Below, piece after piece: positions 3,101 to 43,671 of a stretch of DNA of 56,993 nucleotides. This stretch comes from Lentilactobacillus sunkii DSM 19904. Lineage in GTDB: Bacteria > Bacillota > Bacilli > Lactobacillales > Lactobacillaceae. Position numbers and translations under genes: made by a program. The notes under the pieces were generated by a model. That model ran no database searches. It was given only the letters and a program-made list of their open reading frames with translations, and was not told where the DNA came from. The stretch lies in contig NZ_AZEA01000015.1 in the NCBI RefSeq assembly GCF_001435575.1, forward strand, positions 1 to 56,993. Reading direction: 5' to 3'. Numbering within the stretch: the first letter of the stretch is position 1; the number at the start of each line of letters is the position of its first letter.

Positions 3101-3825
3101 ACCATTGGTCGTAAGTCAGGTGGGATAACTGGAATTGCATCCATTACCATCCAAGAAAGTTCATTTCCAGATTGAACGAAGGCTTCCAAAATATCAAGAC
3201 GACGAACAGCACGGGTCCGCTTTTGACCAGTAGCATTCTTTAATTCGTCCTTCAACTCAACAACTTCTTTATTGATATCAACATCATCAAGCAGGGTTTT
3301 GATTGCTTCAGCACCGATTTGGGCAGAGAAACGAGGACCATATTCCTGTTTCTTTTCACGATATTCACGTTCTGAGAGCAATTGTTTCTTTTCCATAGGG
3401 GTGTTACCAGGTTCAGTAACAACATATGAAGCGAAATAGATAATTTCTTCCAAGGCACGGGGGCTCATATCCAAAACAAGACCCATCCGACTTGGAATTC
3501 CTTTGAAGTACCAGATGTGGGTTACTGGAGCTGCTAATTCAATATGGCCCATTCGTTCACGACGAACCTTTGAACGAGTAACTTCAACTCCACAACGGTC
3601 ACAAACGATACCCTTGTATCGGATCCGCTTGTACTTACCGCAGGCACATTCCCAATCCTTGGTAGGACCGAAAATTCGTTCATCAAACAAACCGTCTTTT
3701 TCTGGTTTCAAAGTTCGGTAGTTAATGGTTTCAGGCTTTTTAACTTCACCATATGACCAACTACGAATTTTATCAGGAGAGGCTAGTCCAATCTGCATAC
3801 TTTCGAATTTATTAACATCGACCAC
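163..3825 (-). CDS. rpoC: DNA-directed RNA polymerase subunit beta'
   Basis: Catalytic beta' subunit of RNA polymerase, 1220 aa, full length for lactobacilli. The N-terminal zinc ribbon has C60, C62, C75 and C78 (CACGKYKR and CDRCG). The invariant [10 protein letters not shown] loop that binds catalytic Mg2+ lies near residues 446-455. The second zinc site is formed by a Cys near 818 (CGTDRG) and [11 protein letters not shown] near 892-902. The start is GTG with GGGAGG 8 nt upstream, giving [13 protein letters not shown], the usual N-terminus. It follows rpoB by 17 bp and is certainly co-transcribed with it. No anomalies seen. Confidence 0.99.
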
Positions 3826-3842: not shown

Positions 3843-6800
3843 CTAGTCATTACTATTGTTAGCGTTGGTTGATTTAGTTGGTGCTTCAACTTTATCAGCA
3901 GGCTGTTTGGCAGCTTGATCGGCTTGCTCTTTCTTCTTGTCGGCCAACTTGCTTAATGCGTCAACATTAACCACGTCGTCATCGTCGTCAAGATCACGGA
4001 GTTCGATTTCTTTATGACTTGCGTCAAGCACTTTCATGTCAAGACCAAGCGATTGTAATTCCTTAACCAACACACGGAATGATTCAGGAACACCAGGCTT
4101 TGGAATTGGTTCACCCTTAACAATGGCTTCGTAAGTCTTTACACGACCAACAACGTCATCTGACTTGTAAGTCAAGATTTCTTGAAGGGTATAAGCGGCA
4201 CCATAAGCTTCAAGTGCCCAAACTTCCATTTCACCAAAACGCTGACCACCAAATTGTGCTTTACCACCAAGTGGTTGTTGCGTAACTAATGAGTAAGGTC
4301 CAATTGAACGTGCATGGATCTTGTCATCAACCATGTGGGCCAGCTTAAGGTAATGCATGACACCAACGGCGATCTTCTTATCAAATGGTTCACCGGTACG
4401 GCCATCGTACAAGATGTACTTACCATCTGAAGGCATGCCGGCTTCCTTAACGGCATCCCAGATATCCTTATCACGGGCACCATCAAAAACAGGTGTTGCA
4501 ACATGAATACCAAGTTTGCGGGCAGCCATACCTAAATGGAGTTCCAAAACTTGACCAATGTTCATACGTGATGGCACACCCATGGGACTCAGCATAATAT
4601 CAACTGGGGTTCCATCAGGCAGGAATGGCATATCTTCTTCAGGGATAACAACGGAAACAGTACCTTTGTTACCATGACGACCTGACATCTTGTCACCAAC
4701 TTGAATCTTACGCTTTTGAGCGATGTAGACACGGACCATCTTGTTAACACCAGGAGAAAGTTCGTCCCCGTTTTCACGAGTAAAGACCTTAACATCCTGG
4801 ATGATACCGCCACCACCATGAGGAACTCTCAATGAAGTATCACGAACTTCTCGTGACTTTTCACCAAAAATTGCATGAAGCAAACGTTCTTCGGCTGAGA
4901 GTTCAGTAACTCCTTTAGGTGTTACCTTACCAACTAAAATGTCGCCATCATGAACTTCGGCACCAATTCGGACAGTTCCGTCTTCATCAAGGTTCTTCAA
5001 AGCATCTTCACCAACGTTAGGAATTTCGCGGGTCATTTCCTCAGGTCCTAATTTAGTGTCCCGAGTTTCTGATTCGTATTCCTCAATATGGATTGACGTA
5101 TAAACGTCATCCTTAACCAAACGTTCGCTGATCGCGATGGCATCTTCGAAGTTATAGCCTTGCCAAGTCATAAATGCAACAACAGGGTTTTGGCCAAGTG
5201 CCAATTCTCCGCCTTCCATTGATGGGCCGTCAGCTAAGATTTCGTCAGCATCAACATGATCGCCAACCTTAACAATTGGGCGTTGGTTGTAGTTCTTACC
5301 GCCGTTTGAACGACGGAACTTCATTAATTTATATTTATCGAGGGACTTGTCGTCACGACGTACTCGAATCTCACGAGCATCAACGTATTCAACAGTTCCT
5401 TCATACTTACAGATGAGGGCAACACCAGAATCATGGGCAGCCTTGTATTCGATACCGGTACCAACAAGTGGTGCATGGGGATCGATCAAAGGAACGGCCT
5501 GACGCTGCATGTTGGCACCCATCAAGGCACGGTTTGAATCATCGTTTTCCAAGAAAGGAATACATGCGGTTGCGACAGCAACTACCTGCTTAGGTGAAAC
5601 ATCCATGTAATCGACTTTATCGATGCTGATTTCAATGTTGTTTGACTTATGACGAGCCATAACAATCTTATTAACAAATGAACCATCATCGTTCAATGGT
5701 GAGTTGGCCTGTGCAATAACAAAGTTATCTTCTTCGTCGGCAGTCAAATAATCAATTCGGTCAGTAACCTTATGGCTGGTCCAATCCACACGACGATATG
5801 GTGTTTCAATGAAACCGTACTTGTTAACCCGGGCATAACTGGACAAACTGTTAATCAATCCAATGTTAGGGCCTTCAGGGGTTTCAATAGGACACATACG
5901 GCCATAATGGGTATAGTGAACGTCTCGGACTTCATATCCGGCACGGTCACGAGTCAAACCACCAGGTCCAAGGGCAGACAAACGACGCTTATGAGTTAAT
6001 TCACCAAGTGGGTTGGTCTGATCCATGAATTGTGAAAGTTGTGATGAACCAAAGAATTCTTTGATTGAAGCCACAACTGGACGGATGTTAATCAATTGTT
6101 GCGGAGTAACGGTTGAAGTGTCTTGAATTGACATTCTTTCACGAACAACCCGTTCCATCCGTGATAAACCGATTCGGAATTGGTTTTGTAATAATTCACC
6201 AACTGAACGAATTCGACGGTTACCCAAGTGATCAATATCATCAATTGAACCGATGCCTTCTTGAAGGTTAAAGAAGTAGTTCATTGCTGAAATGATGTCA
6301 GCCGGGGTGATGTGCTTAAAGCTCAATGGAATATTGTCGTTTCCGATCAAAGGCACTACCCGGTCAGGATCGTTAACTGATTGAACCTTGATGATTTGAA
6401 CAGTCATCGGTTCTGTTACAACAGCTTCGTCTGATGGGTTGAAAGTATAAGCCTTGAACTCATCATTATCGAGGAACGGTGCCAAATCCTTCATAACATC
6501 TTTGGTCACAACAGTTCCTTTTTGAGCGATAACTTCACCTGTATCAGGATCAGCAAGGGTTTCAGCCAATGTCAAGCCTAATAAACGGTTCTTCAAACTA
6601 AGCTTCTTATTAGTCTTGTAACGACCAACAGGAGCCATATCATAACGTTTTGGATCAAAGAAGCGCGCAGTCAGCAAACTTCTTGATGAGTCAGCAGTCT
6701 TAGGCTCACCTGGACGTAGTCGTTCATAGATATCCTTTAATGATTCTTCAACACGGGAATCATCGGTATCCTTATGAACATCCTTTTCCAAAGTTAAACC

Positions 6801-11428: not shown

Positions 11429-11502
11429 TCGGGAAAACAAGATTTGAACTTGCGACCCCTACGTCCCGAACGTAGTGCTCTACCAAGCTGAGCTACTTCC
11501 CG
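11429..11502 (-). tRNA. tRNA-Pro (CGG)
   Basis: A 74-nt cloverleaf with acceptor CGGGAAG/TTTTCCCG, anticodon stem CTACG/CGTAG and loop TTCGGGA, anticodon CGG. CCA is not encoded. Last gene of the eight-tRNA operon. Confidence 0.93.
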
Positions 11503-11562
11503 ATGATTAAGTACTATTCAATTAACAATATAAATATATCATATTATCTATGTTGTAAAAAG

Positions 11563-11636
11563 TCGGGAAGACAGGATTCGAACCTGCGACCCCCTGGTCC
11601 CAAACCAGGTGCTCTACCAAGCTGAGCTACTTCCCG
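11563..11636 (-). tRNA. tRNA-Pro (TGG)
   Basis: 74 nt, acceptor CGGGAAG with CTTCCCG, anticodon stem CCTGG/CCAGG and loop TTTGGGA, anticodon TGG. Very similar to the neighbouring Pro(CGG) gene, suggesting duplication followed by anticodon change. Confidence 0.95.
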
Positions 11637-11658
11637 AAAAATTTATTGCAATAAAAAA

Positions 11659-11732
11659 TGCACCCAGTAGGAGTCGAACCTACAACCTTCTGATTCGTAG
11701 TCAGACACTCTATCCAATTGCGCTATGGGTGC
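11659..11732 (-). tRNA. tRNA-Arg (ACG)
   Basis: 74 nt, acceptor GCACCCA with TGGGTGC, anticodon stem TCTGA/TCAGA, loop CTACGAA, anticodon ACG. A34 is expected to be deaminated to inosine by TadA. Confidence 0.95.
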
Positions 11733-11778
11733 ATAATAAGTATTTAATTAAGTAACCTCAATCATGAATCTTGATTGA

Positions 11779-11850
11779 AGCGGAAGACGGGATTCGAACC
11801 CGCGACCCCCACCATGGCAAGGTGATGTTCTACCACTGAACTACTTCCGC
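11779..11850 (-). tRNA. tRNA-Gly (GCC)
   Basis: 72 nt, acceptor GCGGAAG with CTTCCGC, anticodon stem TCACC/GGTGG, loop TTGCCAT, anticodon GCC. Confidence 0.95.
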
Positions 11851-11854
11851 AAAA

Positions 11855-11928
11855 TGCCGACTAGACGATTCGAACGCCCGACCTCTTCATTACTAGTGAA
11901 GCGCTCTAACCAACTGAGCTAAGTCGGC
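11855..11928 (-). tRNA. tRNA-Thr (AGT)
   Basis: 74 nt, acceptor GCCGACT/AGTCGGC, anticodon stem CTTCA/TGAAG, loop CTAGTAA, so the anticodon reads AGT. The T stem GGGCG/CGTCT contains two G-T pairs. An A34 threonine tRNA is unusual in bacteria and would need inosine to read several ACN codons. Confidence 0.92.
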
Positions 11929-11940
11929 AAAATGTTAATT

Positions 11941-11960
11941 CATAGGTACTAGTACCTATG
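11941..11960. repeat. perfect 20-bp palindrome beside tRNA-Leu
   Basis: CATAGGTACT is followed directly by its reverse complement. Its last two bases are the 3' end of tRNA-Leu. It lies in the spacer between tRNA-Leu and tRNA-Thr and might serve transcript processing; this is inference. Confidence 0.6.
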
Positions 11961-12040
11961 CGGGCGAAGGGATTCGAACCCCCACGTCATAAGACACTAG
12001 AACCTAAATCTAGCGCGTCTGCCAGTTCCGCCACGCCCGC
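11959..12040 (-). tRNA. tRNA-Leu (TAG)
   Basis: 82 nt with a long class II variable arm. Acceptor GCGGGCG with CGCCCGC, anticodon stem CTAGA/TCTAG, loop TTTAGGT, anticodon TAG. Confidence 0.95.
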
Positions 12041-12058
12041 ATTGTTTAAAACTGGCAA

Positions 12059-12131
12059 TGAGCCGTGGCAGTCTCGAACTGCCGACCCTCTGATTAAAAG
12101 TCAGATGCTCTACCAACTGAGCTAACGGCTC
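12059..12131 (-). tRNA. tRNA-Lys (TTT)
   Basis: 73 nt, acceptor GAGCCGT with ACGGCTC, anticodon stem TCTGA/TCAGA, loop CTTTTAA, anticodon TTT. Confidence 0.95.
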
Positions 12132-12133
12132 AA

Positions 12134-12206
12134 TGGAGGATACAGGGATCGAACCTGTGACCTCCTGCTTGTAAGGCAGATGCTCTCCCAGCTGAGCTAA
12201 TCCTCC
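12134..12206 (-). tRNA. tRNA-Val (TAC)
   Basis: 73 nt, acceptor GGAGGAT with ATCCTCC, anticodon loop CTTACAA, anticodon TAC. First gene of the tRNA operon, only 2 bp from tRNA-Lys. Confidence 0.95.
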
Positions 12207-17594: not shown

Positions 17595-17812
17595 CAAAAA
17601 AATCCCTTTCAAAATATTGAAAGAGACAATGAAGTTTCTCAACATCTTGATAGCTCTCCGCGGAATTCCGCGACAGTCCCCAGCCTCTTAAACTGGGACC
17701 CAACAAATAGATGGAAGGCAACTATTTGTTTCGGCATTCATCCCTTTTTACTTCAGTCATAACTTCCTTCAAGTTCCTGAAATATACTTTTGATGAATGC
17801 GCCTCTACTCGA
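17595..17812 (-). promoter_or_regulatory. lysine riboswitch (L-box) with terminator
   Basis: The minus strand carries L-box signatures in order: GAGTAGAGGCGC, GACTGAAGTA, GATGAATGCCGAAAC, then a GTTGGGTCC...GGCTGGGGACTGTC segment and GGAGAGCTATC. These match the lysC-type lysine aptamer (17649-17812). An intrinsic terminator follows (17595-17626: CTCTTTCA/TGAAAGGG stem, then TTTTTTT). Known logic: lysine binding promotes termination, so the permease is made when lysine is scarce. Confidence 0.95.
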
Positions 17813-17855
17813 ATATATTGAATGATTTAGTTTGTAAATAACTTTGACAATCAAA

Positions 17856-18464: not shown

Positions 18465-19157
18465 CTATATTTTAGTATGAACAACAAAACGGTACCTGGC
18501 TACCTGTGGGGCATATTGTGCGTACAACATTTCCGCAAATAATAGCCATGAATAACCAACTAGGCAGGCACCAATGGTATCTGTTGGAAAGTGGGCGTTT
18601 AAATAAATCCGGGAAAGCATCACCAAGACGAGCCCAACTACCAACAGCGCTTTAAGAACGATTCGGATCAAAGCGTGTTCAATCAGCGGTAGGACAATAA
18701 TCCACAATACCCCGGCGACAAAGAAAAAGCCAATGACGTGTCCACTTGGGAAGCTATAACCATTATCAACGCCAAGATGTAACGGTGGCCGGTGTCGGCG
18801 AACCAGCTGCTTGACAACAAGGTCGATGACCCCACCACTTCCAATTGTGAGTAAAGCCCACAACGCAGGAACTTTGTATTTAAATCCCCACAGGAAAAAA
18901 GCAGCAATAAAGACCCAAAACCCGTCCATCACAGGGCTTGATAAAAACGTGATAATTGAGTAGAAATGCTCAAGTCCGGGAGTCGGAGAAGTTCCTTGGA
19001 TGGCCGTGGTAAAAACTGAATCCAAAAATTGCAAATAGTCAAAATTAAACGCCACTGAAACTGCAAGCAATGCTGTAAAGCATAGACTGACAATCAGTTT
19101 GACCAAACGGTTCGGATCTCGTTCCATGAGCATGTAGTCTTCATTTCCGTACATCAT
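18465..19157 (-). CDS. PAP2 superfamily membrane phosphatase
   Basis: Membrane lipid or pyrophosphate phosphatase, 230 aa, with about six membrane segments. The three PAP2 motifs are intact: KQLVRRHRP, then YSFPSGHV, then SRIYLNAHFPTD, which supply the Lys/Arg, His and Arg/His-Asp catalytic residues. The family includes undecaprenyl-pyrophosphate and phosphatidylglycerol-phosphate phosphatases; the substrate here cannot be decided. It is divergent from the TauE gene and followed by its own terminator. Confidence 0.92.
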   Translation of the reverse strand: MMYGNEDYMLMERDPNRLVKLIVSLCFTALLAVSVAFNFDYLQFLDSVFTTAIQGTSPTPGLEHFYSIITFLSSPVMDGFWVFIAAFFLWGFKYKVPALWALLTIGSGGVIDLVVKQLVRRHRPPLHLGVDNGYSFPSGHVIGFFFVAGVLWIIVLPLIEHALIRIVLKALLVVGLVLVMLSRIYLNAHFPTDTIGACLVGYSWLLFAEMLYAQYAPQVARYRFVVHTKI

Positions 19158-43170: not shown

Positions 43171-43576
43171 TATACATGGTGGGATTTTGACTGTCGCCGT
43201 TTTTCAGTTTCCCGTCTCCGCCTGCTGTAGTGGCTTGGATTTCGAGCCTGTAGTCTCGAAATACCAAGATGCTGTAATCATGGCTTTCAGCCGTTTCAAC
43301 AGCATCGATACTACTGCTGGCAATGCCTGCAAACTGAAAAACGGCTACTTTGAGATCTTCTAACTTGCAATAGTCGTTGACCATCCAAGTGAATTGACGT
43401 CTGTCAGAGATATTGCTGCCCGATTTTGCCGGCTTGGCGTTGCCAGCCATAGTGAAAGTATCGTTGATGCCGATGAAATCGGTGATTACGATACCTTTGC
43501 ATTTCAAGACTACAGGCTTGAAATCAAAGCCACTATGGCAGGCAGAGCCAAGCCGGCAAAATCCACCACGAATTGG
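43171..43576. other. inverted pair of structured, covarying elements (unknown family)
   Basis: Two units lie head to head. Unit 1 (43196-43345) closes with GCCGTTTTTCAGTTT/AAACTGAAAAACGGC. Unit 2 (43422-43563, minus) closes with GATTTTGCCGGCTTGGC and its exact complement. Each holds an inner GCCTGC..TAGTGG stem, an 8-bp hairpin with loop CCTGTAGT, and a hairpin with AATCA internal loop and TTC apical loop. Stems differ in sequence but still pair; loops are nearly the same. Outer flanks GGTGGGATTTTG and CAAAATCCACC are also inverted. Open frames across it have no ribosome binding site. Spacer 43346-43421 is unique sequence. Confidence 0.7.
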
Positions 43577-43638
43577 CAGCCAATGAAAACCACTACAGCA
43601 GGTGGAGCCAGCAAACTCAGGCACAGCAGCAACGCAAA

Positions 43639-43671
43639 AAAGGATTAACCGCAAAACGCAGTTAATCCTTC
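43639..43671. terminator. terminator after metY
   Basis: AAGGATTAAC and GTTAATCCTT pair around an 11-nt loop. On the minus strand TTTTTTGCG follows, 27 bp after the metY stop. Confidence 0.85.

Follow-up and report, generated by a model that had tools for sequence, protein, structure and literature searches.

The stretch of DNA analysed here (the window) comprises 56,993 nucleotides of a Lentilactobacillus sunkii DSM 19904 contig, and carries two facing foldback units in opposite orientation between two minus-strand open frames. The frames are called argC and metY after a first-pass annotation of the same DNA, and are read here as open frames alone. We interpret the locus as a single copy of a DNA element that resembles REPINs, is non-autonomous, has branched ends and has spread through the Lactobacillaceae, a reading to which we give about an even chance. 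A broader proposal is made tentatively, as possible rather than probable: that such loci form an undescribed superfamily of branched, facing DNA pairs in at least 12 Lactobacillaceae genera, in which the folded single strand is read by an enzyme other than a Y1/RAYT transposase, the pair turns in place, and copies take up a noticeable share of the intergenic DNA of some species.

The first unit (U1, plus strand) occupies positions 43192..43348, with TGTCGCC at its 5' end and GGCTAC at its 3' end, the latter being the spacer side. The second (U2, minus strand) occupies 43413..43569. Each is 157 bases long, and a 64-bp spacer (43349..43412) separates their 3' ends. Copies differ in this spacer, which is not conserved (identity 0.44-0.60 of ungapped columns for the species compared at two sites). 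Read in the same sense, both units follow one plan, in which a closing stem leads to an inner stem broken by mismatches and this in turn to two hairpins, hairpin 1 with the loop CCTGTAGT and hairpin 2. In U1, the closing stem pairs 43200-43216 with 43325-43341 and the inner stem, beside internal mismatches, pairs 43224-43232 with 43309-43317. Hairpin 1 lies at 43234..43268 with its loop at 43247-43254, and hairpin 2, which has an internal loop, at 43269..43305. U2 belongs to another subtype than U1 and has the closing stem GATTTTGCCGGCTTGG.

A half-unit relic of the U1 type lies just outside U2 (43582..43632, minus strand); it consists of a 5' arm and inner stem, the hairpins and the 3' arm being gone, and was recognized from an inverted repeat of 43206-43241 with 43582-43617 (81%). 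Half-units beyond U2 were also seen in loci L009 (1341-1368) and L040, which makes three such composites including the window. That of L009 is 96% complementary to the 5' arm of its own U1, as if copied across the element. Past the metY frame, at 43640-43670, the minus strand carries a 13-bp inverted repeat and then a run of T, which together have the look of an ordinary terminator.

Both units fold far more strongly than shuffled sequences. The minimum free energy (MFE) of U1 was -66.3 kcal/mol against a mean of -37.7 for 300 dinucleotide shuffles (z -8.0), and that of U2 -85.0 kcal/mol against -39.6 (z -12.0). Covariation was assessed on 24 Lentilactobacillus units (23 distinct), both window units included; the alignment omits L038 and the truncated U1 of L042. 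Among these 24, both sides had changed at 30 of the 48 pairs, cells changed on both sides numbered 204 (shuffled mean 66), and 96.2% of cells were paired (mean 79.3% in 500 shuffles). The signal was lost when the partner was slid by 1-3 columns, pairing then dropping to 31-45% of cells. Helix 1, the closing stem, had 15 of 17 pairs changed on both sides and 92.3% of cells paired; judged from this alignment, its sequence is free and its complementarity is kept. In helix 2, the inner stem, 98.9% of cells were paired, and in helices 4 and 5 of hairpin 2, 7 of 10 pairs had changed on both sides. The loop closed by helix 3 in hairpin 1 was identical across the 24 aligned units, except at one position in L044.

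A coding relic or protein domain repeat is scarcely credible as the source of this pattern. The antisense strand does read GIASSS..DYRLEI.., a 193-aa open frame crosses the locus, and 11 of the 24 units are open in the corresponding frame; however, the other 13 contain stops, and unit lengths of 148, 149 and 130 shift the frame. We therefore rejected this candidate.

Units of the same plan are widely distributed in the family. Covariance model R1, built with both window units, scored 151.2 bits for U1 (43196-43344) and 166.4 bits for U2 (43419-43567), and found 12 distant units of the same plan, spread over eight genomes of which two belong to the genus and six to other genera. Model R2 was built from these 12 distant units with the window units left out, its alignment being fitted to R1, which holds them. 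It recovered both window units at 89.1 bits (U1) and 102 bits (U2), with E-values (3e-22 and 4e-19) that, like those of R1, are rough. R2 matched at least 117 of 397 Lactobacillaceae genomes, in at least 12 of 40 genera; these counts are floors and absence is weak evidence, because scans of more than 40 genomes scored 6-10 candidates each. At the level of the order, at least 9 of 246 genomes had matches, eight of them within the family and one weak (33 bits), and across the phylum the single match among 398 genomes was the window's own genome (6-10 candidates scored per genome). In six chosen genomes the matches numbered at least 150 (G354), 116, 93, 79, 52 and 16.

In the distant units the stems change, while three features recur with exceptions: a loop rule (AG-CC..GT-CT), a core in hairpin 2 around GTTSTAA and AACAAC, and a TTTCAC junction. 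Ends of the TGCCGC..GGCTA type recur in several sets and are absent from some units, their stems varying, and some distant units have an extra hairpin. By blastn, from which copies with diverged stems would escape, the window locus had no match in plasmids or phages, loci L118, L121 and L125 had none in plasmids, and L118 had none in phages. R2 matched none of the pattern hits in viral contigs.

On the units searched, no match to an Rfam family attained the gathering score, the best sub-threshold hits being isrG on U2 (17.8 bits, threshold 100) and HOTTIP_3 on U1 (9.5 bits). The first-pass annotation had described two inverted units here with conserved loops and compensated stems, and had denied a coding origin and membership of a known family. 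All of this is borne out, the last by the Rfam searches, with bounds refined to those given above. It had also staked its reading on a covariance-model search, which a known family or a lack of further compensated copies was to overturn; as there is no Rfam match at threshold and further copies with compensatory changes do exist, in at least 117 family genomes by R2, the reading survives.

We examined the arrangement of the units in 400 kb of G354, which contains 101 of them. As this region was picked partly for its hits, the density is not to be scaled up. All 28 pairs of neighbours less than 400 bp apart were convergent, none being divergent or tandem. The same held for 3 of 3 close neighbours in 200 kb of G183 and for 8 of 8 among 26 loci (two of them from Lentilactobacillus); one exception, a tandem close pair, was found in L045. 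Facing neighbours in the 400 kb numbered 32 in total, four of them more than 400 bp apart (543, 720, 2988 and 3882 bp). The 2988-bp interval was considered as an autonomous copy and rejected: Pfam gave SHOCT, DUF6056 and, just beyond, an acyltransferase, with no transposase. Partners fell into different sequence clusters in 22 of the 28 pairs, and U1 and U2 are likewise of different subtypes. Spacers in G354 are rich in A and T (GC content 26%), and some are alike (55 hit rows, both directions counted). Almost all units are intergenic, overlap with any retained open frame being at most 50 bp for 99 of 101, where open frames covered by a unit over more than 35% had been removed before the count.

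This setting bears on a rather doubtful alternative, in which the units are sites that serve the host on both strands, as two-way terminators or insulators, or as replication or nucleoid sites, handling traffic from both sides. Facing pairs, a mostly intergenic location and the strand symmetry described below would suit such a role, as would a T-rich stretch that follows the 3' ends of the G354 units. Convergent gaps were also somewhat more frequent among gaps with units (15 of 70) than among unit-free gaps of at least 100 bp (14 of 99; raw counts). However, units also lie in 13 divergent and 42 tandem gaps, in the latter being nearer to the upstream stop in 21 of 42; the T-rich tail is, by eye, not general in Lentilactobacillus or G183 units; and 280 of the 397 family genomes gave no match, few candidates being scored per genome. 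With no clear preference of gap or distance and no general T-rich tail, we rejected a terminator role.

Two comparisons, of sequence and of predicted fold, suggest that the stems are conserved at the level of DNA and not of RNA. A transcribed RNA is expected to tolerate G-U pairs and to reject A-C. We counted pairs in four unit sets (55, 17, 24 and 22; 118 units in total), including 94 of the 101 G354 units and leaving out the 7 in tiny clusters. The stem cells comprised 6726 Watson-Crick pairs, 1009 of them changed on both sides, with 131 G-U, 120 A-C and 82 other mismatches; the largest set leans the other way (66 G-U against 39 A-C). Control RNAs from these genomes had 12-14% G-U. The sense strand also folded no better than the antisense, the MFE difference (sense minus antisense) per unit being +2.0 (101 units), +4.3 (24) and +4.2 (34) in overlapping sets. 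In the controls the sense strand folded better on average, by -6.4 per 100 nt for six T-box and lysine riboswitches and -3.7 for ten tRNAs. Three of the ten tRNAs folded slightly better antisense, and of the four T-box controls three lie below the Rfam gathering score and one is cut by the locus end. The eight clustered tRNA genes and the lysine riboswitch of the window (11429-12206 and 17643-17815) served among these controls. Since G-U is about as common as A-C overall and folding does not favour the sense strand, unlike in the controls, the constraint appears to act at the DNA level. R1 also scores the antisense of strong units, so its seven matches in G000 correspond to four units.

A structured non-coding RNA, with the two units as twin genes, is therefore not our first choice, and we regard it as very improbable. 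It would account for the strong fold, the covariation, the conserved loops and the G-U excess of the largest set, and the strand symmetry would likewise be produced by RNAs made from both strands. Apart from the tests above, it is opposed by the lack of an Rfam family at threshold and of any sense bias, units in 66 tandem contexts being sense to the neighbouring genes in 27 and antisense in 39. The first-pass annotation had offered a structured RNA or a folded single-strand DNA site; the DNA half agrees with the strand symmetry and the RNA half does not, and its suggestion of a twin non-coding RNA is not supported by comparison with the T-box, lysine riboswitch and tRNA controls.

By blastn, 5 of 60 genomes searched had a match, all of them in the genus (the window's own and four mates), and R1 matched 7 of 24 genomes of the genus. 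In the own genome, contig C14 carries another composite. Units were found at four intergenic sites in more than one species: the argC-metY site in four (G000, G022, G006 and G005), two sites in three each and one in two. Both flanks were homologous in all nine shared-site comparisons. At argC-metY the orientation of the composite was unchanged in the three comparisons made, and at two of the four shared sites the pair was reversed between the same flanks (L009 versus L040 and L039; L034 versus L042). The reversed pairs have either turned in place or arrived twice; recombination between the inverted units could suffice to flip them.

The argC-metY site in G006 and G005 gives a comparison of units with their surroundings. 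U2 was identical at 150 of 150 bases and U1 at 152 of 156, against 122 of 205 in the spacer, 205 of 247 in the outer gap, 362 of 426 in the argC part and 493 of 606 in the metY part. By these alignments, the units outlast the spacer and even the adjoining genes. In more distant species, same-site units were not always each other's closest relatives. At L043 (1253-1401), U2 combines the left half of one subtype with the right half of another and its hairpin 1 is partly broken; on its sequence it is a visible recombinant between unit subtypes. Therefore, exchange between copies also appears to be at work.

In one alternative the units are passive palindromes, whose arms are kept by template-switch (quasipalindrome) repair at forks and whose copies are spread by ordinary recombination, with no enzyme and no function. 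Most changed pairs have changed on both sides and few are G-U, and sister species contain part-deleted units, both of which fit this explanation together with the recombinant. On the other hand, different genera again show the mismatches and loop bases that repair of this kind should remove, the facing of 28 out of 28 close neighbours requires a rule, and the units outlast the spacer at one site. On balance, we consider passive palindromes unlikely.

For the REPIN-like element that we prefer, three observations suggest mobility, namely that copies are dispersed, that some sites are empty in other species and that two pairs are reversed. At three G022 sites the unit is absent from the other species examined and the flanks there have diverged, both flanks being kept at one of these sites in G005 alone. 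The g41 species are ~94% identical over the stretches compared, and matches run unbroken across most of the units in 40 kb; breaks at the one g41 composite aligned in full read as deletions. No target duplication was readable, the junctions having diverged at the G022 sites and being deleted at the g41 site, and spread of the unit is accordingly something we infer. In G160, match ends overlap by 8 bp; this was considered as a target duplication and turned out to be a deletion through a unit. In L156, matches to G105 break in or near units (5568-5638 and 18481-18617), as expected of palindromes losing inner parts. Of the mobile foldback element that the first-pass annotation had suggested, the structured ends fit the facing pairs, and the mobility stays at the level of a suggestion, no target-duplication junction having been read.

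A Y1 transposase (PF01797) was matched in 54 of 117 carrier genomes and 85 of 278 others (odds ratio 1.9, p 0.004, at raw genome sizes). There was no PF01797 match in 63 of the 117 carriers, nor in the copy-rich genomes G354, G232 and G312. We rejected a Y1/RAYT link on this weak association and the lack of a match in the richest genomes.

We propose that a unit, about 130-190 nt long, would adopt its branched shape when single-stranded or extruded: two or three hairpins would sit on an inner stem, itself enclosed by the closing stem, with the inner-stem mismatches and hairpin loop bases being kept. Units often lie in facing pairs with a free spacer between them. When the strand is single during replication, transfer or repair, the branched ends may be recognized by a DNA-processing enzyme supplied in trans. 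Such an enzyme would have copied, moved or turned the pair at intergenic sites, and either its recognition or template-switch repair between the arms could maintain the shape of the copies.

Among known systems, MITEs are short and non-coding with inverted ends and no transposase of their own, in which the units resemble them; here the ends are branched folds of free stem sequence, and no target duplication was read. Branched folded ends in an inverted pair of similar size are also a feature of AAV-type inverted terminal repeats, but with no replication gene or virus at the locus the comparison is an analogy only. SPRITE is the name of one pneumococcal repeat, and the BOX and RUP repeats of pneumococcus are dispersed and intergenic (PMC3049150 for BOX and RUP). 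All three are likened to our units by description alone, as dispersed intergenic repeats of Lactobacillales; R2 gave one weak match (33 bits) outside the Lactobacillaceae among the 246 genomes of the order.

The closest likeness is to REPINs, REP doublets associated with RAYT transposases (Bertels and Rainey 2011, PMC3116915), which are described there as non-coding intergenic inverted foldback pairs with a less conserved spacer and many copies, and for which single-strand folding has been proposed. One REPIN feature recurs here: inverted pairs around a spacer (28 of 28), 99 of 101 units intergenic, and at least 150 matches in G354. In contrast to the short 20-40 bp REP unit, units here are branched and about 130-190 nt long; no GTAG or CGTC tag was seen by eye at their ends; and the RAYT (Y1) match is missing in 63 of 117 carriers. 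REPIN doublets are better conserved than singlets, whereas best identity here was 0.81 for paired (56) and 0.85 for single units (45; p 0.10). Because three of the four features (size and tag, transposase, doublet conservation) differ, we group the units with paired palindromes and not as REPINs.

GTAG- and CGTC-tagged REPs are likewise dispersed palindromes, often dimers, and the CGTC class is said to lack a dedicated transposase (PMC3733652). According to that account, their stems are 5-13 bp, a point of difference from ours, and G-T stem pairing is frequent, which it is not in the present units; the words Lactobac, Firmicutes and Gram-positive are absent from its main text. A survey of stem-loop families in 40 bacterial genomes (PMC2267715) also dealt with folded repeat families, beside which our units are set by description; Lactobacillus johnsonii is the sole lactobacillus in its table, with three clusters. 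We found no earlier description of these units in a literature of which our coverage is incomplete, so a prior description is possible.

If our reading is right, food and gut bacteria commonly carry a feature that has so far escaped naming, the rapid change of its stems having hidden it from sequence searches. Paired folded-DNA sites would then be available as a large natural data set; the units would also serve to test how DNA-level covariation can be separated from RNA-level covariation (G-T versus A-C), and could point the way to an unknown enzyme that recognizes branched single-stranded DNA.

Two other insertions were noticed at the loci compared. In L156 of G183 (3339-3505), a different repeat lies inside the loop of a terminator-like hairpin, the uninterrupted form of which is present in G135, G160 and G105; other copies of this repeat match at 84-95%. 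In L116 of G105 (~1886-2181), an insertion of ~294 bp with an N run, IS-like by eye, is missing from the G160 copy.
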